From: a virus
Reading direction: 5' to 3' (one strand)
Virus record (IMG/VR): IMGVR_UViG_3300044799_000565
Location: 1 to 36,399 of that record
Length of the DNA stretch: 36,399 nucleotides
The number at the start of each line of letters is the position of its first letter. Within the stretch, counting starts at the first letter, position 1. This document shows positions 4,037 to 34,663 of this stretch, in pieces. The notes under the pieces are model-generated. The model worked only from the letters and a program-made list of their open reading frames with translations, made no database searches and was not told where the DNA came from. Made by a program: the position numbers and the translations under genes.

Positions 4037-4068
4037 CAAATAAAGAACGAAAGGGGGTGAAAAAAGAA

Positions 4069-4644
4069 ATGAAGAAATTACTAAAAAATTTTGTTTTAGT
4101 CGTGGTTCTGGGGTTTTTACTATTACCTGCTGGTTGTGGTGGTGCAGAGGATTATTATAACCTTAGTGGTTGGACTCCACCTGTTGATGCTGCATTTACC
4201 AGTTTTGTGAATAGTAATACTACTCCAAGTTTGGTAACGAGTTGGATATATTACAATTACACATGGCAATATAGCACATCGGTTAAAAGCCCATATAATT
4301 TTTGGAAAACTAAAGTCGGAGATTGTAGTGAATGTGCGGCTCTTGTCTCATACGTGTCTCACCAGCACGGGTATCAAACCTGGCAAGTATATATAACTTA
4401 TGTAGAAAATGCCGCTCATAGATTATGTGTTTACAAAGTAGGTTCATTATATTATTACACCAGCAAAAAATATTGTTATCAAGCTCCTGGTTGGAGTTCT
4501 TTTGCGGCAGTTGTAGCTCATCATGATACTTTAACTACTTATACCGTGCAGGATTTTGTTGTTTTCGATTGGTATGGCAATGTAGTTGTTCAACCAAAGA
4601 ACCCAGACTTAATAAAAAGTAGAGGATTATACGACGGAGAATAA
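4069..4644 (+). CDS. lipoprotein with transglutaminase-like cysteine core, 191 aa
   Basis: I choose ATG 4069, 8 bp after AAGGGGGTGA, over an upstream in-frame GTG at 4057 that overlaps that Shine-Dalgarno. Residues 1-22 are a signal peptide with lipobox LPAGC (C23). Residues about 80-140 carry GDCSECAALVSYVSHQHGY, the Cys-helix signature of the transglutaminase-like/papain-like fold (nucleophile probably C86), followed by AAHRL with H117. The third Asp of the usual triad is not obvious, so activity is uncertain. It would be tethered to the outer face of a membrane, where relatives cross-link or cleave peptides or amides. It follows another lipoprotein and probably shares its transcript. Confidence 0.65.
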   Translation: MKKLLKNFVLVVVLGFLLLPAGCGGAEDYYNLSGWTPPVDAAFTSFVNSNTTPSLVTSWIYYNYTWQYSTSVKSPYNFWKTKVGDCSECAALVSYVSHQHGYQTWQVYITYVENAAHRLCVYKVGSLYYYTSKKYCYQAPGWSSFAAVVAHHDTLTTYTVQDFVVFDWYGNVVVQPKNPDLIKSRGLYDGE

Positions 4645-5122: not shown

Positions 5123-5356
5123 ATGCATAGAGCCATTAGGCATTATATCAAAAAAAGATCAAGGAATATTAATAATGCAGAACATCCAGGGGAGAGTTTT
5201 ATTAACCAATACTTTGATCTAATTGATGATGAGATTAATCTAGCCAGAAGAGTAGAGATTAAGAAGGCCAGGGAAAAAAAATTAGAAGAATGGAGAAGAA
5301 AAGAAAAGCTAAATTGTAGGCACAATAACAAAAATTTAGGAAGGTTAAGAAGATGA
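5123..5356 (+). CDS. small basic helical protein, 77 aa
   Basis: ATG after AAAGGAGG. Very rich in Arg, Lys and Glu, with a likely long helix from about residue 35 onward (VEIKKAREKKLEEWRRKEK). No family is recognised. Its stop overlaps the ATG of the radical-SAM gene at 5353 by 4 bp, so the two are translationally coupled. Confidence 0.6.
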   Translation: MHRAIRHYIKKRSRNINNAEHPGESFINQYFDLIDDEINLARRVEIKKAREKKLEEWRRKEKLNCRHNNKNLGRLRR

Positions 5357-6087
5357 AAAATAAAATAGGCTGGTGTTCGATGACATTTAATCCTGTATGG
5401 GGTTGCCTTAATCATTGCGAATATTGTTATGCAAGAAAAATAGCAAAAAGATTTGCTAATAGAATGGCAATACATGAAATTTTTAGGCCTGGTGATGGAG
5501 ATGAAGCATCAAAGAAAATTAATAATCTGAGCAATGAGTTAATGAAATTTATTCCTACATTTTTAAATTCACAATATTATAAAAAATTCCCTAAAAAACC
5601 CCAACGAATATTCGTAGGATCTATGAGCGAAATAGCTCATTGGGAAAAAGAATGGATGGAAAAAGTATTGGATAGGATTAAATTATACCCTCAACATGTC
5701 TTCCAATTTTTGACCAGATATCCTGATATATATTTTGGAAAATATAAATTCCCTTTAAATTGTTGGTTAGGGGCTACTATTACAAGACCATTGAATACGA
5801 AACCTATGGGATATTCTACAGAGAAAGCTTTTAATATGAATAAAGATAATTTAAAATTTATTAGCTTTGAACCATTATTAGAAAGGATAGAACCTAAATT
5901 CAAAGTTGATTGGGTAATAATAGGAGCAGAGACTGGTAATAGAAGGGGTAAGGTTATTCCAAAAAAAGAATGGATAGAAAACATAGTTGATTACTGTAGA
6001 AAAAATAATATCCCTATCTATCTAAAGGATAGCCTAAAAGACATTTATCCGGTAGAGGTTAAAGAATTTCCTAAAACAGAACTATAA
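5353..6087 (+). CDS. radical-SAM protein of the phage Gp37/Gp68 (DUF5131) family, 244 aa
   Basis: The N-terminus TFNPVWGCLNHCEYCYARKIA has the radical-SAM cluster motif C18-x3-C22-x2-C25, which binds the [4Fe-4S] cluster that cleaves S-adenosylmethionine. The motif at the extreme N-terminus preceded by a T-x-NP-x-x-GC phrase is characteristic of DUF5131, a phage-enriched family. Later phrases RIFVGSMSEIAHWEKEWM, FLTRYPD and WVIIGAETGN fit that family too. Its reaction has not been established to my knowledge; DNA or RNA modification is a frequent suggestion. It overlaps the gene before it by 4 bp and is followed by a second radical-SAM gene. Family assignment is firm; substrate is unknown. 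Confidence 0.8.
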   Translation: MKNKIGWCSMTFNPVWGCLNHCEYCYARKIAKRFANRMAIHEIFRPGDGDEASKKINNLSNELMKFIPTFLNSQYYKKFPKKPQRIFVGSMSEIAHWEKEWMEKVLDRIKLYPQHVFQFLTRYPDIYFGKYKFPLNCWLGATITRPLNTKPMGYSTEKAFNMNKDNLKFISFEPLLERIEPKFKVDWVIIGAETGNRRGKVIPKKEWIENIVDYCRKNNIPIYLKDSLKDIYPVEVKEFPKTEL

Positions 6088-6260: not shown

Positions 6261-7100
6261 ATGTGGAATAGGATATTAAGAGTATTTGTTAGAAAGACAA
6301 GCCAAACACCTGTTGATGATTATGTAAGAATTGGAATGCCCGATTTATTTAGGCCTAGTTGTCAAGATATTGAAGAAGTTCATATATCAGTTTTATTTAG
6401 TTGGGACAAAGAAGAGGGATTTAAATTACAAAAGAATTATTCACAATATTATTCTAGAGTCTTAATTGGTGGACCAGCCTTTGCTAATAATACTTCTAAT
6501 TCAGAATTTTATCCTGGAAAATACGTTAAAAAGGGAATTGCTATAACTACGCGGGGTTGTAATAATAATTGCCCCTGGTGCTTAGTGCCAAAGATTGAGG
6601 GTAAATTTAAAGAAATAAATATAGAATCAGGGAATATCGTCCAAGATAATAATATTCTTTTAGCAAATAAAAATCATCTTCAAAAGGTATTCCAAATGTT
6701 AAGAACTCAGAAACAAATAAAATTCTTAGGTGGATTAGATAAAAGATTTTTAAAAGATTGGCACATCGAAGAATTAAGATCACTTAAAATTAAAGAATTG
6801 TGGTTATCTTTTGATAGCTGGGACAATAAAAGAGAATTTATAATGGTCATCGAGAAATTAAAAAAATCAGGATTCAGAAGAAATCAAATAAGATGTTATG
6901 TGTTGGCGGGATTCAAAGAGCCAATACAAGCAAGTGAGAGTAGATTAAGATTTGTTTATGAATGTGGAGCATTGCCTTATATTCAAGTTTATCAACCTAT
7001 AAGTGAAAAGAAAAGATTCGCTGGTGAAAGATCAAGAGAGGATAATTTATTTGTAAGACAATGGTCAAGACCAGCAATTATAAAAAGTATAAATAATTAA
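6261..7100 (+). CDS. radical-SAM enzyme, 279 aa
   Basis: The motif RGC100-NNN-C104-PW-C107 is the CX3CX2C cluster site, placed after an unusually long N-terminal segment of about 99 residues (VRIGMPDLFRPSCQDIEEV, VLIGGPAF). Downstream KFLGGLDKRFL and KELWLSFDSW look like the beta-strands of a partial TIM barrel. The layout resembles B12-binding-type radical-SAM proteins whose N-terminal domain is shortened. No substrate can be assigned. Start ATG 6261 follows AAGGGAATTATTTA, a modest ribosome-binding site. It lies between the DUF5131 enzyme and the replication initiator. Confidence 0.75.
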   Translation: MWNRILRVFVRKTSQTPVDDYVRIGMPDLFRPSCQDIEEVHISVLFSWDKEEGFKLQKNYSQYYSRVLIGGPAFANNTSNSEFYPGKYVKKGIAITTRGCNNNCPWCLVPKIEGKFKEINIESGNIVQDNNILLANKNHLQKVFQMLRTQKQIKFLGGLDKRFLKDWHIEELRSLKIKELWLSFDSWDNKREFIMVIEKLKKSGFRRNQIRCYVLAGFKEPIQASESRLRFVYECGALPYIQVYQPISEKKRFAGERSREDNLFVRQWSRPAIIKSINN

Positions 7101-10472: not shown

Positions 10473-11168
10473 GTGACTTTAATTGTAGGTATGAGGGCTG
10501 ATACTGCCATTGTTTTGGCTGCTGATAGTAGAGGCACTATAGGCGACCCTAGAGGTTTAACTGCAATTAATGATAGCTATGTGAAAATATTCAAGTTAAG
10601 TAATTGTGGGCTAGGCATAGCTGGTGCTAGTGAAATGGGTGCAGCATTACTTGATGGTTTATTAAAGAGTGATTGTAATACAGTTACTAATATTGATGAC
10701 GCTATAAACAAAGTTGTTAAGCAATGTGCTGATTCTTTTGCAGGATGGTTCAGAGATATTCCTCCAGCCCAACGACTTGGAGTAATACTGACTTTGGTGG
10801 GTTATCGTTTTTCTAAAGGGAAGCCACCGGAGCCGATGATTTATATACTAAATAGTCAATTTAATTTCGCTCCTCAATTATTGAATAATTTACCTTGTCT
10901 TACTGGTATTCCTCAATATGCTGTTTATTTAGTTCATCGCTATCTTTCACCTAATATTACATTGGATAAAGCAAAAGCTTTATCAGAATATTTAATAGCT
11001 GAAACTGCATCACAAGACCCTAAAGTAGGCGGTCGTATACGTATGGCTATAATATCTCCAGACAAAGGGTATAACGAACTTACAGAGGCAGAAGTAACTG
11101 CTATTCATCAAGCTAATGAAGGATTAAATCAGAAATTACGACAATTTTTTTTAACGGGAGGTGAATAA
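10473..11168 (+). CDS. proteasome beta-like Ntn hydrolase, 231 aa
   Basis: GTG start after AGAGGAGG gives M-TLIVGMRADTAIVLAADSR. Counting from the Thr after Met, the sequence has Thr1, Asp17 and Arg19 exactly as in proteasome beta and HslV subunits. VKIFKL supplies the active-site Lys with a four-residue insertion (residue 37 rather than 33), and GIAGASEMG matches the next conserved turn. Removal of Met would expose the catalytic Thr. Length is normal for a single beta-type subunit. No ATPase partner is nearby. The gene has its own promoter and overlaps the next gene (TAATG). Function is unknown: self-compartmentalised peptidase, or an effector in the lysogen. Confidence 0.75.
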   Translation: MTLIVGMRADTAIVLAADSRGTIGDPRGLTAINDSYVKIFKLSNCGLGIAGASEMGAALLDGLLKSDCNTVTNIDDAINKVVKQCADSFAGWFRDIPPAQRLGVILTLVGYRFSKGKPPEPMIYILNSQFNFAPQLLNNLPCLTGIPQYAVYLVHRYLSPNITLDKAKALSEYLIAETASQDPKVGGRIRMAIISPDKGYNELTEAEVTAIHQANEGLNQKLRQFFLTGGE

Positions 11169-11626: not shown

Positions 11627-12286
11627 ATGAGAAAAGTAAAGGTTGAATATGTCGATATAGATAGATTAAAGGAATGGGAAAACAATCCCCGGATAAATGA
11701 TGAGGCTTCTAAAAAGCTATCAAAATTAATAAAATATTATGGCTTTATAAATCCGATAATAGCCACTCCTGATGGAGTAATAAGAGCAGGACACACCAGA
11801 TATAAGGCTGCAAAATTAAATAAATTAAAGAAAGTTCCGGTCATATTCATAGATTTTAAATCAGAAGAAGAGGCAAAAGGTTATTCTATCTCAGATAATA
11901 AATCTTATGAATTTTCAAAGTGGAATGTTACTCTATTAAAAGATGATCTTGAAGAATTAGATACCGGGGAATTTGATATTGAGCTAACTGGTTTTAGTGA
12001 AGGAGAAATTGAGAACCTGATGACTCAATATCACGTCCCAGTTACTTTAGAAGATATCGGGAAAAAATTAGAAAGTTATATTAAGGCTGGCCCCCATCGA
12101 TGTATTGTAATAAGTTTCGGGAAGTTTGTCTCTCCGGTTAAAAAGGATGAGGATTTAGATGAGATGGAATTTATTCAAAGATCGGGAGAGGTAATGAATT
12201 TAGAGGATGAGGAAAGAAGAATAATCGCTTTAGAGGTGGCTAAATTTATCTATGAAAGGGTTAAAAAGTGGCTAAATTTGCCATAA
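11627..12286 (+). CDS. ParB/sulfiredoxin-fold protein, 219 aa
   Basis: Residues about 5-95 form a ParB-like domain: VDIDRLKEWENNPRIND, a helix containing LIKYYGFINPIIA, then GVIRAGHTRYKAAKLNKLKKVPVIFID, the GH-x-R nucleotide-binding segment. The sequence continues with SISDNKSYEFSKWN, typical of phage ParB-like proteins often fused to or beside DNA methyltransferases. The C-terminal 90 residues are unassigned. It overlaps the radical-SAM gene by 19 bp. Family is firm; whether it binds CTP, cuts DNA or serves a modification enzyme is not shown. Confidence 0.75.
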   Translation: MRKVKVEYVDIDRLKEWENNPRINDEASKKLSKLIKYYGFINPIIATPDGVIRAGHTRYKAAKLNKLKKVPVIFIDFKSEEEAKGYSISDNKSYEFSKWNVTLLKDDLEELDTGEFDIELTGFSEGEIENLMTQYHVPVTLEDIGKKLESYIKAGPHRCIVISFGKFVSPVKKDEDLDEMEFIQRSGEVMNLEDEERRIIALEVAKFIYERVKKWLNLP

Positions 12287-13479
12287 AAATATATCGCTAT
12301 GGTAATTATACCCGGGCTTGGTTAAATTATATGTGTAGGACTTATGGGCTTGAAGTAACTGACGAAAAAGACGCTGATATAATTTTAATTTCAATTTCAG
12401 ATCCCATGGAAATAAATTTGATATTTAATGCCAGAAGGAGTCAAAAACCGATAATTTTAGGGGGCAGTGAGGCTTTTCATGAAAAGATGTACTCTAACCT
12501 AGTGGATTTAATAAATGTAGGTGAAGGCTTTGAAATCTTTGAAAAATTGCAATTGATAAAAAATGAGAGTCCCGGGAAGATTATCGAAAAACTTAAAGAT
12601 CTTCCCTATATCTATCACCAAGGAAAAGAAGGGGCTATTTATCCTTCTACTAAAGTTAACTGGGACTTAGTGCCGATAGTAAAGACCGGAGTAAGAAGAA
12701 GGATAATTTTAGGGGGCAGAGGTTGCAGGAAAAAATGTAAATTTTGTTATACTTCCTGGACCACTAAATATCAGAATAATCCCTATTTACCTAATGTTGA
12801 TAAGCAAGTAATGATCATAAGTAATGATAATTTAGGACCTAAACAGTTATACCAGAGATCTTATGTAAGGTCAATTACCGCAGAAGGTTATTTGAAGATG
12901 ACTAAAGCTCAAGCTAAAACTTGTTATTATTACCGGATAGGCCTAGAATCATTTTCAGAAAAAACCAGAAAATTCTACGGAAAACCTATTTCCAGTGAGC
13001 AGATCAGGAGAATAATGGAAGCGTCAAGAGAATTTAATCATCGATTAACCTTATTTATCATTGCTGGATATGAACCCCAGGAGAGCGTAGAGGAATTTTG
13101 TAATTCATTTAAACAGGATACTAAATATAAAAATCCTAAAATTGAGGTAAAAATGACCTATCTTGAATCTACTTTACACACTCCATTACAGGATTTCGAT
13201 ATAAGGAAGATGTATCGCTGGGATAAAAATTATCTGATCAGCACATTAACTTATGCTTCTCAAAGATTTAGGATCTGGAGCATGAAAAAGGATTTTGGGG
13301 GTGCTTATTGGAGAACCTGTTTACATCGGGCAAGGACCCGGGAAGAGATTGAAGAAGTTTACCACTGGAAAGGGAAAACCGGGAAAGAGATATTAGAATT
13401 AATTGAGCAAAAAGGATGGCTACATTTATATAATCAAAATAATTCTACCGGGATAAAATTCTGGTATGAGAGGGATTGA
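12268..13479 (+). CDS. radical-SAM enzyme with B12-binding-like N-terminal domain, 403 aa
   Basis: GTG start within the end of the ParB-like gene, 7 bp after GAAAGGG. Residues 1-95 resemble a Rossmann/B12-binding-type domain (DADIILISISDPMEI, KPIILGGSEAF, INVGEGFEIFEKL) but I see no DxHxxG cobalamin motif. The cluster site is RGC153-RKK-C157-KF-C160. Later YYRIGLESFSEKTRKFYGK and LFIIAGYEPQESVEEF are typical radical-SAM barrel strands. The C-terminal region about 300-403 is unassigned. Placement between a ParB-like protein and the terminase suggests a role on phage DNA, but this is inference. Normal methylthiotransferase or Elp3 features were not seen. Confidence 0.8.
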   Translation: MAKFAIKIYRYGNYTRAWLNYMCRTYGLEVTDEKDADIILISISDPMEINLIFNARRSQKPIILGGSEAFHEKMYSNLVDLINVGEGFEIFEKLQLIKNESPGKIIEKLKDLPYIYHQGKEGAIYPSTKVNWDLVPIVKTGVRRRIILGGRGCRKKCKFCYTSWTTKYQNNPYLPNVDKQVMIISNDNLGPKQLYQRSYVRSITAEGYLKMTKAQAKTCYYYRIGLESFSEKTRKFYGKPISSEQIRRIMEASREFNHRLTLFIIAGYEPQESVEEFCNSFKQDTKYKNPKIEVKMTYLESTLHTPLQDFDIRKMYRWDKNYLISTLTYASQRFRIWSMKKDFGGAYWRTCLHRARTREEIEEVYHWKGKTGKEILELIEQKGWLHLYNQNNSTGIKFWYERD

Positions 13480-26991: not shown

Positions 26992-29802
26992 TTGGGGATA
27001 ACAGTTAAAATCGGCGGGGTGGATAAAACCGAATATGTGGATGCCCGGACCCTTAGCATAAGGGATGAGCTAACCAGTAAAGTTAATTCAGCCTCCTTTG
27101 ATTTTATCTGTAATGATATAGCTGTTGCCCCCATTCCTGGTGAAGCAGTTTTAATCGAAGAAGGGGTAAATAAACTATTTTCAGGAAGGATCTTATCCAA
27201 AGAAGAAAGTTTTTTACCCCCTAATCTCTTGAAATATCCGGTTGAATGTATAGATCATACCCGGGATTTAGATAAAAAATTAGTATCTGAATCCTATAAA
27301 AACCAAAAAGCCGGTGATATTTATAAGCATATAATCGATAATTATACTACTGGTTTTACTTATAATAATGTCAGTGATGGCCCCATTATAAGCGAAATAG
27401 CCTTCGATTTTGTGCAAGTATCCGAAGTCCTAACCCAAATAGCTGAGATTTGCGGTTATGAGTGGTATGTGGATTATGACCAGGATATCCATTTCTTTGC
27501 TAAAAATACTTATCCGGCACCCTTCCAATTGGACGATGATCAGGTAAATTATAAAGATTTAATAATTAATACTAATATATCTCAATTAAGGAATAGGATA
27601 TATGTAAAAAGTTCGGGGTTAGAAGATACTTTTGGAGAAACATTTATTTATGATGGTGTGGCTACGGAGTGGACTTGTAAATTTGCACCTATTAACCGGG
27701 GGCGTGAAAAATTACCAGACCCAGACCCTAAACCAGCACAAGGTGTTTGGAGATGTGATTTTTCTTATGATGATATTTATTTGGCAGTGCCTTATGAGCA
27801 TACGGTTGCAGCAAATAAAGGCATTTATATCTATAAAAGAGAAGGGGATTCGTTTAAAAGGTTAAACTTTCCTGACGTTACCCCTAATGACGATGGACAC
27901 GATGCATCTTTCTCTTACGATTCTACTTATTTGGCAGTAGTACATGATAGTACACCATACGTGATGATTTATAAAAGAGCAGAAGATACCTTCACCAAAT
28001 TAACTAACCCCAATATATTGCCTACCGGAACTGGGTGGGGTTGCGATTTCTCTCCTGATGGCATTTATTTGGCAATAGCTCACAATACTTCACCTTATAT
28101 TACAATCTATAAAAGAAGTGGAGATACCTTTACTAAACTTAGCAATCCTGCTACTTTACCCACTGGAGATGGTTTCGGATGTAAATTTTCTCCTGATGGT
28201 GTTTATTTAGCAGTGGCTCATAATACTACACCATTTATTACCATATATAAACGTACAGGAGATACATTTGCAAAATTAGCCAATCCTGCAAGTTTACCTA
28301 CTGGATGGGGACTTAATATAGCTTGGACTTATGACTCTGTTTATTTGGCGGTAGGTCACGATGTAACACCTTTTATTACGGTATATAAACGAACAGGTGA
28401 CGTATTTACTAAAATAACTAATCCTGCTGAATTACCTACCGGTCCCAGTTATGGTGTAGATTTCTCTCCTGATGGGATACAATTAGCAGTTGCTCATTCT
28501 ACCACACCTTTTATAACTATCTATACTCGTACGGGAGATATTTTAGGTAAACAGGTTGATCCTACCGATTTACCTACTGGAAATGGTAGGGGAGCGATAT
28601 ATTCTCATAATGGTAAATATTTAGTAATAGGTTATTTTGCTGACCCTAATATTATTATATATAAACAATCTTCTCCTATTATAAAAGTGGATGGAGTAAT
28701 TAAAACAATCGGTTGGGATGAAGTAGATAACCCACTTTATTATGATTTTATGCTAAACGAAAAAACGAAAGTATTGTCAATTGGGGCTGCAGGTACTCAA
28801 ATGATTGATGTGGGGACTTTAGTAAGTGGTTCAGCAGTAGTTGGATATCCAAATATTACACATATAAATAAAAGTAACCCGGCTAATGTAACCGGAAAGA
28901 TTACCCGGATAGAAATATGGGCATATACAAATTTAACTTATTGTAAAGTGGCCACTTTTTATCGTCCTGACCCAGTAGGATTTCCTAATAAACTTTCCAC
29001 CAGGGATACGGAAATTATTGGCACGGTAATAGCAGGCTCAAAACAAACCTTTGAAGTTGATTTAGAGGTGGTAGAGGGTGATTGTATAGGAATTTATTTT
29101 ACCGCTGGTTATCTTTGTGCTGCTGAGGGATATAGCGGAAGATGGTATCACTATGGAGATAAAATTCCCTGTACAAATCAAATTTTCACAGTCAGTGAAA
29201 CTGATACGGTAAGTCTTTATGGCACAGGAAGCATTGGGGAAGGAGAATTAACTATAGGAAGTGAATTACTGGTTGGTTATACTACTTTCGGAGTACCCAT
29301 TTGTTTTAAACGAGAAGATCAAGATTCTATAGATAAAGTTTCCGCTATTGAAGGTGGGGATGGTATTATTGAATTTTGCTTGGTGGATAATAATATTGAT
29401 AGTATAGCCTGGGCCAATGAAGCGGCTAAAGCAGACCTATTACAGAATGCTAATCCGATTATTCAAGGAACTTTTATAACTAATAGAAGCGATATCTGGA
29501 GCGGTCAGATAATAACACTTATTTCTACCAAAAGGAATATAAATCAGCAATTTATAATCCAAAAGGTAGAATTGGTAAGGGTTGATGTACTTACTGAGTG
29601 GCCTACCATACCCTATAAACCTGCTGTTGAGGCGGTAATAGGATATAAACCTGCCAGTGAAGCAGAGAAGGGATATAGGGCAGCCGGGGATAGCGGGGGG
29701 ATCATATATTATATTTTTAATGTTACTATCGCCAATAAGTTTAGAAAATTAGAGGATCTATTTATTTATTTATTAAACCGGACTGATGAAAGTTTAAAGT
29801 AA
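26992..29802 (+). CDS. tail hub protein with inserted seven-bladed propeller and adhesin-like module, 936 aa
   Basis: TTG start after AGAGGAG. Residues 1-245 are the phage tail hub (gp27/D-like) domain: VLIEEGVNKLFSGRILS, LVSESYKNQKAGDIYKHII, ICGYEWYVDYDQDIHFF. Residues about 250-560 are seven repeats of the form FSPDG-YLAVAH-TPFITIYKR, about 44 residues each, i.e. a WD40-like beta-propeller. The hub resumes at SPIIKVDGVIKTIGWDEVD. Residues about 605-746 are a second insert, clearly similar to the protein at 31465. The hub then closes with AKADLLQNANPIIQGTF. The inserts probably bind a host surface ligand. The C-terminus has a short repeat (GYKPASEAEKGYRAAG). Confidence 0.82.
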   Translation: MGITVKIGGVDKTEYVDARTLSIRDELTSKVNSASFDFICNDIAVAPIPGEAVLIEEGVNKLFSGRILSKEESFLPPNLLKYPVECIDHTRDLDKKLVSESYKNQKAGDIYKHIIDNYTTGFTYNNVSDGPIISEIAFDFVQVSEVLTQIAEICGYEWYVDYDQDIHFFAKNTYPAPFQLDDDQVNYKDLIINTNISQLRNRIYVKSSGLEDTFGETFIYDGVATEWTCKFAPINRGREKLPDPDPKPAQGVWRCDFSYDDIYLAVPYEHTVAANKGIYIYKREGDSFKRLNFPDVTPNDDGHDASFSYDSTYLAVVHDSTPYVMIYKRAEDTFTKLTNPNILPTGTGWGCDFSPDGIYLAIAHNTSPYITIYKRSGDTFTKLSNPATLPTGDGFGCKFSPDGVYLAVAHNTTPFITIYKRTGDTFAKLANPASLPTGWGLNIAWTYDSVYLAVGHDVTPFITVYKRTGDVFTKITNPAELPTGPSYGVDFSPDGIQLAVAHSTTPFITIYTRTGDILGKQVDPTDLPTGNGRGAIYSHNGKYLVIGYFADPNIIIYKQSSPIIKVDGVIKTIGWDEVDNPLYYDFMLNEKTKVLSIGAAGTQMIDVGTLVSGSAVVGYPNITHINKSNPANVTGKITRIEIWAYTNLTYCKVATFYRPDPVGFPNKLSTRDTEIIGTVIAGSKQTFEVDLEVVEGDCIGIYFTAGYLCAAEGYSGRWYHYGDKIPCTNQIFTVSETDTVSLYGTGSIGEGELTIGSELLVGYTTFGVPICFKREDQDSIDKVSAIEGGDGIIEFCLVDNNIDSIAWANEAAKADLLQNANPIIQGTFITNRSDIWSGQIITLISTKRNINQQFIIQKVELVRVDVLTEWPTIPYKPAVEAVIGYKPASEAEKGYRAAGDSGGIIYYIFNVTIANKFRKLEDLFIYLLNRTDESLK

Positions 29803-29907: not shown

Positions 29908-30357
29908 ATGAAAAGGAAAGTTAAGAAAATTTTGTTAGTGGTCTTTGTCGTACTTTTAATTTCGATACTAGCCGGTTGCGGTCCTCATTTTCTTGATGGA
30001 CTGGAAGATGCAGATTGTGCAGAACAAACAGTTTGGGACTACTGGCAGGCAATCATTAACCGGCAATATGAATTGGCTAAAGGGTATTGCGTAATCGGCG
30101 GAGTTTGGGACCATAAGACTGACGAATGGGAAGAATATATAAATATTAACTCTGAGGGTGAGGCTTCAGTGGTGATTTATCAACCTTCTTTTTATGAACA
30201 ACCTGAAGCGATTGAAAATAACGCTGTTGTATATGTGAGAATTGCTGTTAGTATAATACCTTTTCCTGATAGTTGTATAATCGGTGGTGATACCTTTGAA
30301 TATGAAACTGAACTAATTAAGCAAAATTACCCACCTGGAGACTGGGAACTTAAATAA
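29908..30357 (+). CDS. secreted lipoprotein in the late region, 149 aa
   Basis: ATG after AGGGGGTGT. MKRKVKKILLVVFVVLLISILAGC is a signal peptide with lipobox ILAGC (C24). The mature part begins helical (AEQTVWDYWQAIINRQYELAKGY) and continues as beta strands (ASVVIYQP, NAVVYVRIAVSI), the outline of an NTF2-like fold as in many small lipoproteins. It lies between tail hub and fibre-like genes and is followed by a terminator, like the other accessory cassettes. A lysogen surface function is inferred from the anchor and position. Confidence 0.7.
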   Translation: MKRKVKKILLVVFVVLLISILAGCGPHFLDGLEDADCAEQTVWDYWQAIINRQYELAKGYCVIGGVWDHKTDEWEEYININSEGEASVVIYQPSFYEQPEAIENNAVVYVRIAVSIIPFPDSCIIGGDTFEYETELIKQNYPPGDWELK

Positions 30358-30379: not shown

Positions 30380-30450
30380 AGAGCTCCATTTTTTAGAGAG
30401 CCAGATTTTAAAAAGGTTTTTGACCTTTTAGATCTGGCTTTTTTTATTAA
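30380..30450 (+). terminator. intrinsic terminator (AGCCA family member 4)
   Basis: AGCCAGAT (30399-30406) pairs perfectly with ATCTGGCT (30432-30439); inside, TAAAAAGG pairs with CCTTTTA; seven T follow. AGAGCTCCATTTT lies upstream, nearly identical to the copy at 16285. It closes the lipoprotein cassette, 23 bp before the start at 30473. Confidence 0.75.
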
Positions 30451-30472: not shown

Positions 30473-31465
30473 ATGTTTAAAAAAAGAATATGGTTAGGGA
30501 TTATTTTGTCAATCATCTTATCGGTATTTAGCATAAATGGCTTTACCGCATATTACAAATATACCCAGGAGTCAGGGACTAACTTTTATGTTGGTACTGA
30601 TGACAAGGCCGATGCCCTGGAAGATACTAATGAGGTTAGGCAAATACTCGATGATCTGGGCAATTTATTAGGTCATTCAAAAAGAGATGATCTATACCCG
30701 AAAAATGGTACTACCGGGGGGTATTTGGGTCGGTTAAATTATGGTTTTGATGCGAGTAAACCCTCTGTCCCGGTTGTAAATGATATGTATTTAGCCACTG
30801 ATACTGTTAAGGTTTATAGGTGTTTTGTGGCCGGGAACTGGGTCCAGGTATATCCTATTACTGAGGTTGATCCTACTGTAGATACTGATGCAGAGATTAA
30901 AGCAATTTTGGTTAATGAAGTAACTAAGATCGGGGATTTTCCCGCTGGATATAATGCAATAATTAATGATGCCAGTGGGATAATTCAACAAGGCACTAAT
31001 ACTAATACTGAAATAGCGAGCGCAGTTATTTATAGTCATATACACAATACTGATACTACCATGAATCTTGCTAATGCATTAACTAATGATCACAATTATA
31101 GCGGATTAGAGGATATTCAGTTAGTTGGTGAATCGGTAGTTTTTGGACAATTATTATATTTTAACTGGACTGATAAAGAATGGAAATTAGCAAAAGCAAA
31201 TGCTTCTACCACTATGCCAGGATTAAGAATTGCTCTTGAATCAAAAACCGATGGTCAGACTTGTAAGATGTTAGTAAAGGGTTATATTCGAGATGATACT
31301 GATTTTGAGTTTGCAGGGTCGATGGTTTATGTTTCTGCGGCAACAGCAGGGGCTATGACTTCTACTGCACCTTCCACTACTGGTCAACAAGTACAAAGGG
31401 TAGGGGTGGCAAAATCTGCTGATATTTTATTCTTTGATCCAAGCATAGATGTGGGTGAAATCTAA
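30473..31465 (+). CDS. exported fibre-like protein, 330 aa
   Basis: ATG 30473 lies 8 bp after GGAG; an ATG at 30455 precedes the ribosome-binding site and is less likely. MFKKRIWLGIILSIILSVFSINGFTA is a signal peptide or membrane anchor. The rest is Thr/Gly/Asp-rich with fibre-like strand repeats, and its end (GSMVYVSAATAGAMTSTAPS, VQRVGVAKSADILFFDP) resembles C-terminal pieces of phage tail fibres. Tail fibres do not normally carry signal peptides, so either it is displayed by the host cell or the hydrophobic N-terminus serves virion attachment. It overlaps the next gene by one base. Confidence 0.6.
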   Translation: MFKKRIWLGIILSIILSVFSINGFTAYYKYTQESGTNFYVGTDDKADALEDTNEVRQILDDLGNLLGHSKRDDLYPKNGTTGGYLGRLNYGFDASKPSVPVVNDMYLATDTVKVYRCFVAGNWVQVYPITEVDPTVDTDAEIKAILVNEVTKIGDFPAGYNAIINDASGIIQQGTNTNTEIASAVIYSHIHNTDTTMNLANALTNDHNYSGLEDIQLVGESVVFGQLLYFNWTDKEWKLAKANASTTMPGLRIALESKTDGQTCKMLVKGYIRDDTDFEFAGSMVYVSAATAGAMTSTAPSTTGQQVQRVGVAKSADILFFDPSIDVGEI

Positions 31466-32028
31466 TGAAAAAAATATTAATAATAATTTTTTTTATAATG
31501 ATAATCTTTCAAATGATTACCCTTGCGACTGCCATTGATGTAGGCAGTACAGCCATTAATAGATCCACTTATAATAATGAAGGGACTTCTGTGGATAGAA
31601 ATAATCCCGCTAATGCTAGCGGGACAATAACATCGGTAGAAATTTATGCTAACTCAGCTATGAGTAACGTTGAAGTTGCCACTTTCTATGTAGTGAGTGG
31701 TAATAATCTTTCTACTCGTGATATTGAAACTATTGGAGCTGTAGCAGCGGGTTATACTACTCACACAGTAAGTCTTGATATAGTAACAGGAGATTATATT
31801 GGTATATATTTTAGTGCAGGTGGGTTGGATAGAGATACTACTGGGGGTGGCTTTTGGAAAAACGCAGGCGATCAAATTCCCTGCACAAATATTCTTTTTA
31901 CTTTAACTGCAAATGGAATATTAAGTATTTATGGCACAGGTGCGACAGTAACAGGAATAAAATGGAATACTGTAACTATCTCTAAATGGAATGGGCAAGT
32001 AATTACAAAATTAAATGGAATGCAATAA
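31465..32028 (+). CDS. exported protein homologous to a tail-hub insert, 187 aa
   Basis: ATG overlaps the preceding TAA. MKKILIIIFFIMIIFQMITLATA is a signal peptide. Residues about 24-160 align with residues 605-746 of the tail hub: shared NPAN, VATFY, LSTRD, a GDYIGIYFSAG segment, GD-IPCTN, and YGTG. The fold is probably a beta-sandwich. The C-terminus adds WNTVTISKWNGQVITKLNG, a motif common at ends of phage structural proteins. It is either a virion component or a secreted copy of the adhesin module. Confidence 0.65.
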   Translation: MKKILIIIFFIMIIFQMITLATAIDVGSTAINRSTYNNEGTSVDRNNPANASGTITSVEIYANSAMSNVEVATFYVVSGNNLSTRDIETIGAVAAGYTTHTVSLDIVTGDYIGIYFSAGGLDRDTTGGGFWKNAGDQIPCTNILFTLTANGILSIYGTGATVTGIKWNTVTISKWNGQVITKLNGMQ

Positions 32029-32042
32029 AGGGGTTGAGATAA

Positions 32043-32348
32043 ATGGAAGGGATCGAATTAGGTAAAGCAATAGCCGAATATGGGATACCAATTATAACCG
32101 GTATATTCTTAGTATTGGTTTGCTGGCTGGTTAAATACCTTATTACTCAGCAGACCAAGGACAGAAATACTTTTATGAATATGTTTCAGAATGAATTAAA
32201 AACACTTCATAAAGATAGTTTACTCAATGCTAAATTAAACCGCAAAAGTATAAGTATGCTGGGAACTTTAACCGAATATTTGAACCGTCATTTTAATGGC
32301 TGTGCTGATAAAGTAAATTTTAAGAAAAAGATTGATGAAAAAGGATAA
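32043..32348 (+). CDS. holin-like membrane protein, 101 aa
   Basis: ATG after AGGGGTTGAG. One hydrophobic helix (IPIITGIFLVLVCWLVKYLI, residues about 15-34) is followed by a charged helical tail. This outline, and the position directly before the endolysin, suggest a small holin or spanin-type lysis protein. Single-helix layout resembles BhlA-type proteins. No sequence motif settles it. Confidence 0.55.
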   Translation: MEGIELGKAIAEYGIPIITGIFLVLVCWLVKYLITQQTKDRNTFMNMFQNELKTLHKDSLLNAKLNRKSISMLGTLTEYLNRHFNGCADKVNFKKKIDEKG

Positions 32349-32352
32349 TTAA

Positions 32353-32835
32353 ATGTCAGGTGATCTTTCGACTAATTTCTGGAAATGGGAGTTTAAATGT
32401 CCATGTCTGAAATGTAGAAGGAAAAAAGTTAGAGTAAGCAGTCTATTACTTTTTAAATTAGAAATATTAAGAGTTGAATTAGGTAGTAAACCGGTAATTG
32501 TATTAAGTGGAAACCGTTGCCTCGAAGAAAATAAAAGAGTAGATGGCCATCCTGATTCTGCTCATATTCCTAACCCGGATGGAGAGGGTGCTGACGTTAA
32601 GATAAAAGGAGTAAAACCTATCGATATAGGATTGGCTGCTGAAAAAATAGGTGGGATGAGAATAGGAATAGCTAAAACTTACGCACATTTAGATATAAGA
32701 CCTCCAAGTCCGAGTAAGTTCTGGATATATTTGGGGAAGAAAATTATTTATTCCGGGTCCATAGAGAACAATGATCTGTTAAAATTCTACCAAATAATAC
32801 AGGAAAGAATAATTGATACTAATTTAATTTTATAG
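32353..32835 (+). CDS. M15-family peptidase endolysin, 160 aa
   Basis: LSTNFWKWEFKC at the N-terminus is the usual opening of the Peptidase_M15_3 family. Zinc ligands are visible as H71 and D81 in SAH-x(6)-GEGADV and H112 in AHLDIR. The spacing between H and D is longer than the usual HxxGxAxD by a few residues. It would cut peptide bonds in the host peptidoglycan stem peptide to release phage. It sits between two holin-like genes. Confidence 0.82.
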   Translation: MSGDLSTNFWKWEFKCPCLKCRRKKVRVSSLLLFKLEILRVELGSKPVIVLSGNRCLEENKRVDGHPDSAHIPNPDGEGADVKIKGVKPIDIGLAAEKIGGMRIGIAKTYAHLDIRPPSPSKFWIYLGKKIIYSGSIENNDLLKFYQIIQERIIDTNLIL

Positions 32836-32865
32836 AATAATATTTAAGAAAGGAAGGTGAAAAAA

Positions 32866-33306
32866 ATGGCAGCAATTATATTTGCTTTTGTCTATAAATA
32901 TTTTTTTGGCATAATAATTGTTTATGTAGTAGGTATGTTCAGCAAAGCTTTAATTAAACAATTTGGAAATGACAGAGCCACAAAGATAAAGGAAACTATT
33001 CTGTCGGCTATGTTATGGGCAGAAGAACAATTCGGAATAGGCAATGGTGACCAAAAATGGGAAGAAGCCTGGAAGAAAATTAGAGAGATGTTAGAAGCTC
33101 AAGGAATTACTTTAAAAGCCGAAGAGACTTCTTATGTAAAAGACCTTATGAAATCCAACGTTCCACAAATTAATGCGATAACATATTCCGCTTTACCAGA
33201 AGCGGATTTACAAGTTAGAGATATAAAAAATAGAACCCCTGAAGCTATATTACTTATTGAAGAATTGAAAAAGAAATATCCAGAAAATAAAGTTTCAATA
33301 CAATAA
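32866..33306 (+). CDS. LLH-type phage holin, 146 aa
   Basis: ATG 32866 follows AGGAAGGTG; the GTG at 32857 lies within it. One N-terminal membrane segment (IIFAFVYKYFFGIIIVYVVGMF) is followed by AMLWAEEQFGIGNGDQKWEEAWKKIREMLEAQGI, the pattern of LL-H family holins (A-x-x-AEQ ... G-x-G-x-x-K). It would open the membrane for the endolysin. It is the last gene before the strong terminator. Confidence 0.75.
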   Translation: MAAIIFAFVYKYFFGIIIVYVVGMFSKALIKQFGNDRATKIKETILSAMLWAEEQFGIGNGDQKWEEAWKKIREMLEAQGITLKAEETSYVKDLMKSNVPQINAITYSALPEADLQVRDIKNRTPEAILLIEELKKKYPENKVSIQ

Positions 33307-33357: not shown

Positions 33358-33394
33358 AACCCCTGCGATGCGAGAGCGCAGGGGTATTTTTTTT
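33358..33394 (+). terminator. strong intrinsic terminator ending the late operon
   Basis: CCCCTGCG (33360-33367) pairs perfectly with CGCAGGGG (33377-33384), followed by TA and eight T. It separates the phage lysis genes from the unit starting at 33424. An ACCTCCTT string just upstream (33350-33357) is the complement of a Shine-Dalgarno on the other strand, but it leads only to a four-codon frame there. Confidence 0.85.
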
Positions 33395-33577: not shown

Positions 33578-34663
33578 GTGATTTCAGATTTTGGAAATAC
33601 ATCCGTAGTTGGCGAGGGCGGCGGTATTGAAAAATTTTTTAGAATTTTTACTCCTGTAAAACCTTCCAAGAGCCGCAAGTTGAATTCAGTTTACGGAGAT
33701 AGTTTCAATCCATTTAAAGATACTTTAATGGACTATCCTACGATTGTACAATATAAACTAGGAAAGGTTGGAAAATTAGATTGGAGTAATTATAATAGGC
33801 TTGTTTCTTTGCACATATCAAGATGTCCAATTAATTGTTGGCATTGTTATATAGAGGAATGCCTTAAGTTCGAATGCAATATTTGTTCTGTAAATAGAAA
33901 ATATTGTCAAGATAGAAAAGCTGAAATGGGTATTAAAGAAGATTGGTTTTCAGCAAAAAAAATTGTTAAAAATTTTATTAAACAACGCGATTTAGATAAA
34001 GAAAAAAGATTATTTTCTAATATATTAAGAATTACTGGAGGTGAACCTTTCCTTGTTCCGAATCTTCTATTGGAAATTTTAGAAGAATTACAAAAGGAAA
34101 AACTCAATAAAGATATTTTTTTATGGACCGAAACAAATCTAATTCCTTTAATCGTACAAGATAATTATAAAAAATTAGTAACAGATGAAGTCTTAGATAA
34201 ACTTGGTAAGTATGATAATTTCTGTGTACATCCTTGTTTTCATGGGTTGAACCAAAATAATTTTAAAGAAGTTACTGGGCAGACAATAGAAGATTTTAAT
34301 TTTTTATTAAAGGCCTTTAAGCGTTTATTAAATACTGGAATCGATATTTATCCATCATTTGGATCGAATACGAGTTCTCCTGAAGATGTAGAGTGTTTTT
34401 ATAATAAAATATCTGAGATAAACCAACTTCTACCACTTCGTTTTTGTTTGATAGAATATGATCTTGATTATAGTCCCATTAAATGGAGAAGAAAAAAAAT
34501 TCCTGATTTTTCCAAAGATCATAAAAAAGTTTATGATAGATTCCAAGTAATAGAAAGGTGGGATGAATTATTAAAAGAAAATACAGGATATAAATATGGT
34601 GATATACCGCGACATTTAATTCCTATTAAAAAAGGAGGCAAATATTATGAACTTAGAAAATAA
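33578..34663 (+). CDS. radical-SAM protein with extra cysteine cluster, at least 361 aa
   Basis: The motif SRC83-PIN-C87-WH-C90 (numbered from GTG 33578) is CX3CX2C, followed by C95, C100, C103 and C110, possibly a second metal site. LRITGGEPFLVPNLLLEIL is the radical-SAM GGEP strand that binds SAM, and FLWTETNL continues the barrel. The frame is open back to 33485 and reads LLDKTRELFGKINRTAKSG, so the gene probably starts earlier; see the finding on the T-run at 33491. It overlaps the next gene by 17 bp. Substrate unknown; GGEP plus extra cysteines suggest a peptide- or protein-modifying or maturase-type enzyme. Confidence 0.75.
   Translation: MISDFGNTSVVGEGGGIEKFFRIFTPVKPSKSRKLNSVYGDSFNPFKDTLMDYPTIVQYKLGKVGKLDWSNYNRLVSLHISRCPINCWHCYIEECLKFECNICSVNRKYCQDRKAEMGIKEDWFSAKKIVKNFIKQRDLDKEKRLFSNILRITGGEPFLVPNLLLEILEELQKEKLNKDIFLWTETNLIPLIVQDNYKKLVTDEVLDKLGKYDNFCVHPCFHGLNQNNFKEVTGQTIEDFNFLLKAFKRLLNTGIDIYPSFGSNTSSPEDVECFYNKISEINQLLPLRFCLIEYDLDYSPIKWRRKKIPDFSKDHKKVYDRFQVIERWDELLKENTGYKYGDIPRHLIPIKKGGKYYELRK

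Follow-up and report, generated by a model that had tools for sequence, protein, structure and literature searches.

Does the free protein encoded downstream of a viral tail hub represent a secreted copy of a module of that hub, or does it belong to a separate system that uses the same kind of domain? This question is raised by a 36,399-base metagenomic record of a bacterial virus, the whole of which was analysed and is referred to here as the window, and in which the order of genes is siphovirus-like: terminase, Mu-type portal, capsid, tail tube, tape measure, hub, hub-to-lysis region and lysis genes. The initial annotation of this DNA had pointed to a module shared by the hub and a protein with a signal peptide, and had proposed that the latter is a secreted module copy with which a lysogen blocks superinfection, or that both copies may be virion parts. 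The hub gene and its two inserts in this record are as follows.

26992..29802, + strand: tail-hub protein of 936 aa, with a TTG start, directly after the tape-measure gene and with homologous hubs in relatives
27730..28671, + strand: beta-propeller in the hub, about residues 247-560 (Pfam propeller matches; AlphaFold pLDDT mostly 80-93)
28801..29232, + strand: jelly-roll module in the hub, residues 604-747 (found by alignment and profile; absent in the homologous hubs of loci L005, L054 and L024)

The free protein is the second of two adjacent genes for which export is predicted, and the features of this pair are listed next.

30473..31465, + strand: fibre-like exported protein of 330 aa, its ATG following AAAGGAG
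30473..30550, + strand: export leader of the fibre-like protein, with predicted cleavage near TA^YYKY (leaderless homologues start where this leader ends)
31465..32028, + strand: free exported protein of 187 aa, its ATG sharing one base with the stop codon of the preceding fibre gene
31465..31533, + strand: Sec-type leader of the free protein, 23 aa (ATA^IDVG)
31534..31944, + strand: jelly-roll module of the free protein, residues 24-160
31945..32025, + strand: C-terminal tail of the free protein, modelled with low confidence and probably disordered, with KWN repeats (KWNTVTISKWNGQVITKLNG)

Pairwise alignment by BLASTP confirmed the homology: residues 623-747 of the hub and 41-160 of the free protein are identical at 59 of 125 positions (47%), with 81/125 positives and an E value of 2e-30, and a profile widens the match to residues 604-747 of the hub (nt 28801-29232) and 23-160 of the free protein. 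The earlier coordinates of the hub module, 28804-29229, were thus correct to within a few residues, and the motifs NPAN, VATFY, LSTRD, GDxIGIYF, IPCTN and YGTG are present in the order reported. Similarity by chance or low complexity was ruled out by this E value together with the ordered fold. Both copies are one compact type of beta-sandwich module. In the AlphaFold model of the free protein, residues 24-160 form an ordered all-beta sandwich (pLDDT about 98) between a helical leader and the low-confidence tail, while the model of the whole hub is poor outside the propeller (mean pLDDT 50.6) and the module was not read from it.

That the hub copy lies in the virion is inferred from the place of the gene after the tape-measure gene, from weak hub-family matches (PHROG 196 "baseplate hub", E 1e-3, and, in a homologue, a YQBQ-like match, E 2e-4) and from an N-terminal homologue in a Thermoanaerobacterium phage. 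The hubs of L005 and L054 are otherwise alike, including the propeller, and do not have the module segment; the hub of L024 has neither the module nor the propeller, which in the hub of the window is built from repeated FSPDGVYLAVAHNTTPFITIYKR units. The hubs of L010, L005 and L054 carry an extra discoidin-like insert near residue 120. This pattern of presence and absence indicates that the hub takes three kinds of insert at separate places, and the alignments of homologous hubs identify the module of the window as a clade-specific insertion.

Viral-contig scans, with the free protein and an alignment as queries, and one genome-contig scan together yielded 53 distinct module copies that span 110 residues or more, nearly all of them on viral contigs. 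Among the carriers of the module are tail hubs, leaderless proteins with a single or double module, proteins with a zinc-ribbon-like start, laminin-G-type proteins, exported proteins and one lipoprotein (L005:9760-10803), in which the module at the C-terminus is a membrane-tethered copy; the N-terminal part of this lipoprotein resembles, by eye, the protein encoded at 4057-4644 of the window. These carriers show a family of jelly-roll modules shuffled among tail hubs, virion-type proteins, lipoproteins and predicted exported proteins. A PDB sequence search gave no match to the family, and Pfam gave none convincing among the 53 copies, since no Pfam family matches more than one member, and that weakly. 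In Foldseek comparisons with the PDB, the weak matches (TM up to about 0.45) were to carbohydrate esterases, to CBM6 and similar jelly rolls and to the central fibre of a mycobacteriophage; in a viral library they were to phage fibre-type proteins, and the weak likeness covers phage spike domains as well. The likeness to CBM6 is a weak fold similarity and does not place the module in a known carbohydrate-binding family. From these weak fold matches, without a sequence-family match, the predicted role in binding is likely.

If the free protein were a secreted copy of the module of its own hub, the two copies should be related within each genome, and this was examined with relatives, a module tree and identity ranks. 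In the tree, whose bootstrap support is not fully settled, all hub modules form one clade (100/100), and exported copies are scattered among leaderless virion-type copies, the well-supported branches requiring three label changes or more. The free copy of the window groups with the module of a 1969-aa viral protein, away from its own hub, and by identity to free copies the own hub ranks 19th to 37th of 52. In the four genomes with both copies, own pairs share 47.4% identity on average and other pairs 45.0%; permuting the partners, for which only 24 permutations exist, gave no significant result (p 0.83). The exported gene is also kept where the tail-tip gene has no module, namely in L005, L054 and L024, whose hubs are of the same family, and in L001 and L006, which have a different, Prophage_tail-type hub (PF06605); these records are fragments, so a module may lie elsewhere in them, while the hub genes themselves were read. 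The free copy does not track the hub copy of the same genome in any of the three comparisons, and the tree and the identity comparisons ruled out recent duplication within the genome and concerted evolution of the two copies.

The proposal that a secreted copy of the own hub's receptor-binding module takes up the same receptors on the lysogen, shutting out superinfection by this phage, has in its favour the 47% identity of the modules and the presence of a leader on one of them, and these two elements of the initial annotation stand. Its other elements fare differently: the exported gene persists where hubs are without the module, the two copies lie at separate positions in the tree without pairing within genomes, and the gene is encoded with lysis genes. 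No integrase was found by Pfam among the open reading frames tested, so a lysogen function is unsupported within this record, which is perhaps incomplete. A secreted copy of the own hub module is not supported by these comparisons, and in its strict form this is the least probable of the readings weighed here. The exported pair is not tuned to the hub module of its own phage, and a broader role of the free protein in masking or exclusion is possible.

The free protein begins with a leader that matches a Sec/SPase I signal (MKKILIIIFFIMIIFQMITLATA^IDVG), and such a leader is present in the other exported homologues checked as well. Leaders were called by a simple rule, not by SignalP, and export is accordingly a prediction; by this rule exported copies have a leader with n, h and c regions and leaderless homologues have none. 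The N-terminal domain of the fibre-like protein was compared at 29 loci, where it is preceded by 24-46 residues if a hydrophobic leader is present and by only 2-5 if not, with nothing intermediate. The leaderless module proteins of L009, L033, L042, L044 and L047 begin at the mature-end position of the free protein. For both proteins, the starts of leaderless homologues coincide with the predicted mature ends or differ from them by a few residues, so that the leaders are clean additions. The fibre-like protein shares both its N-terminal domain and its gene slot with leaderless fibre-like proteins. An exported protein follows the leader-bearing fibre in 13 of 13 distinct cases with a readable next gene, while an exported tip follows the leaderless fibre in 0 of 5 distinct cases, both counts being uncorrected for relatedness; the gene after the leaderless fibre encodes a holin-type or similar membrane protein in L079, L087, L088 and L092 and a small membrane protein in L081.

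Within the tip slot, the leader and the KWN tail are constant and the domain between them varies, being a jelly roll, BNR repeats, or a discoidin-like domain with or without a propeller. Tips with the KWN tail thus carry unrelated binding domains such as BNR repeats (L058) and the discoidin-like domain (L014, L060), the latter of which also forms the hub insert of L010, L005 and L054 (E 4e-28 and 1e-24). Hub inserts and predicted exported tips are shown by these matches to draw on the same domain types. In L003, the module is 97% identical to those of L001 and L002, the leader is dissimilar, and the DNA of the C-terminal tail matches the window over the last codons, a pattern indicating that the domain alone was exchanged. 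The jelly-roll tips of L022, L024, L028, L032 and L035 have a different short tail, and L020 encodes a second small exported protein with the KWN tail and without a binding domain. The comparisons together show the free copy as the interchangeable domain of the second gene in a two-gene unit with predicted export, consisting of a fibre-like protein followed by a tip of leader, domain and KWN tail.

Between the hub and the end of the lysis genes, the following further features were found.

29908..30357, + strand: lipoprotein of 149 aa with the lipobox LAGC (related lipoproteins are present here in relatives, in variable number)
30394..30447, + strand: terminator-like hairpin with a T-run, after the lipoprotein gene and before the exported pair (-24.1 kcal/mol, z -6.4)
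32043..32348, + strand: small membrane protein, probable holin (weak Holin_BhlA match)
32353..32835, + strand: M15 peptidase endolysin (PF08291, E 6e-9; PHROG 894, E 2e-20)
32857..33306, + strand: LLH-type holin (PF09682, E 6e-6)
33359..33394, + strand: terminator-like hairpin closing the unit of exported pair and lysis genes (-17.5 kcal/mol, z -4.5)

The hairpin at 30394-30447 recurs in L003, L004, L006, L054, L021 and L062, with base changes that occur on both sides of a pair; a conserved GAGCTCC lies before it. With one hairpin before the pair and another after the lysis genes, the exported pair is probably in the lysis transcription unit, apart from the hub and lipoprotein genes. A promoter scan gave little above shuffled sequences (22 versus 18.3, sd 4.0). 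L004:4537-6863 has four to five lipoprotein-like genes between the hub and the exported fibre, and from this array and the single lipoprotein gene of the window it follows that their number varies fast.

A function consistent with these features can be outlined as follows. Late in infection, the fibre-like and tip proteins would leave the cytoplasm through Sec and bind surface polymers of the infected cell and its debris, perhaps together with the neighbouring lipoproteins; this may limit re-adsorption of progeny or secondary infection. If the host has two membranes, export by Sec would by itself carry the pair no further than the periplasm before lysis. Exported adhesins made from virion-type parts together with the lysis genes, and masking the host surface and debris, are our preferred reading, which we hold tentatively and, with the anatomy included, at somewhat less than even confidence. 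The more specific proposal of a dedicated extracellular adhesin system, in which the binding domain of an exported fibre and tip is swapped as a cassette from the domain types of hub inserts and the proteins are released with the lysis genes as a mask, is possible but more doubtful.

The main rival is an accessory fibre of the virion: the pair would join virions once outside the cytoplasm, at lysis or later, or the leader would be an uncleaved hydrophobic anchor, and the module would be a second receptor-binding domain of the particle. This is in line with the alternative in the initial annotation that both module copies may be virion parts. Leaderless homologues of the fibre N-terminal domain, presumably virion proteins, share the slot before the lysis genes, the pair of L001 and L002 is located among tail genes, and fibres typically combine constant ends with a variable middle; against this reading, the cytoplasm is where tailed phages assemble, a leader persists or is even exchanged for another one (L003) while the mature protein is otherwise nearly identical, and the module occurs on a lipoprotein too. 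On balance we regard the virion fibre as rather unlikely, though a serious competitor. An adhesin for the benefit of the host, by which the pair would aid adherence of the infected or lysogenic cell to particles or biofilm and leave phage adsorption unaffected, could account for exported binding domains beside lipoproteins and for an exported module protein beside similar lysis genes on a Bacteroidetes-binned contig, but a late, lysis-linked position leaves little time for such a benefit and the record has no sign of lysogeny, so that we consider it improbable. A lysis-related or periplasmic role of the pair, such as binding peptidoglycan or outer-membrane polymers to help lysis, seems very improbable to us: the pair is probably in the same transcription unit as the holin, endolysin and second holin, but spanins and lysins do not share its variable binding domains or its fibre-like architecture, and L079, with similar lysis genes, has no exported tip. 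The adhesin reading predicts that virions will lack the mature fibre and tip, which should instead appear in the fluid or the envelope fraction.

The host could not be assigned from either of two sources, terminase matches and the genome-contig scan. Matches of the terminase by tblastn are diverse bacterial phages, all below 60% identity, and the free and fibre-like proteins have no match among 50,697 phage records. The single genome-contig scan with the module gave only a Nanoarchaeia surface protein and a Bacteroidetes-binned contig with a similar cassette, possibly mis-binned. The latter (L018:5777-12464, from a contig binned to a Bacteroidetes MAG) encodes exported proteins, a leader-bearing module protein, an M15-like endolysin and a holin-like gene, and this similar gene order is a possible hint to the host or the sign of a mis-binned virus. 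Elsewhere in the window are four radical-SAM-type genes (5353-6087, 6261-7100, 12268-13479 and 33578-34663), one of them DUF5131, which seems many for a 36-kb phage, and, upstream of the terminase region, a weakly proteasome-like protein (10473-11168) with a 73-aa gene directly after it.

Binding modules in tail proteins and exclusion lipoproteins are each already known separately. As in evolved Dit-type tail proteins, which have carbohydrate-binding modules in their loops (PMC7291167), a beta-sandwich is inserted here in a tail-tip protein of some relatives only; the carrier is a hub rather than Dit, no relation in sequence between the module and known carbohydrate-binding modules was detected, and the module type occurs also in an exported protein. 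Many coliphages have their receptor-binding and exclusion lipoprotein genes immediately after the gene for the tail tip, and exclusion is believed to keep progeny from adsorbing unproductively to infected cells or debris (PMC9586334). The exclusion lipoproteins Llp of T5, Cor and Ltp of TP-J34 (PMC9586334, PMC3952083) are likewise small exported phage proteins, those of coliphages being encoded near the tail-tip gene, and lipoproteins are found at the corresponding place here too. The free protein, in contrast, is not a lipoprotein, since a lipobox is absent from it and from the fibre-like protein and present in the neighbour at 29908-30357; its domain is of virion type, its partner is an exported fibre-like protein, and exclusion by it is putative.

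A related architecture is that of modular pairs of tail fibre and tip genes with exchangeable receptor-binding domains, which the unit described here resembles in its constant ends, exchangeable domain, two adjacent genes and position before the lysis genes. Fibres assembled in the cytoplasm need no Sec-type leaders, whereas both proteins here have them, and no clear precedent for secreted tail fibres was found in the literature searched. If the proposed reading is true, an exported fibre and tip, with exchangeable domains like those of the tail tip, would be a distinct extracellular action of a phage on the cell surface.
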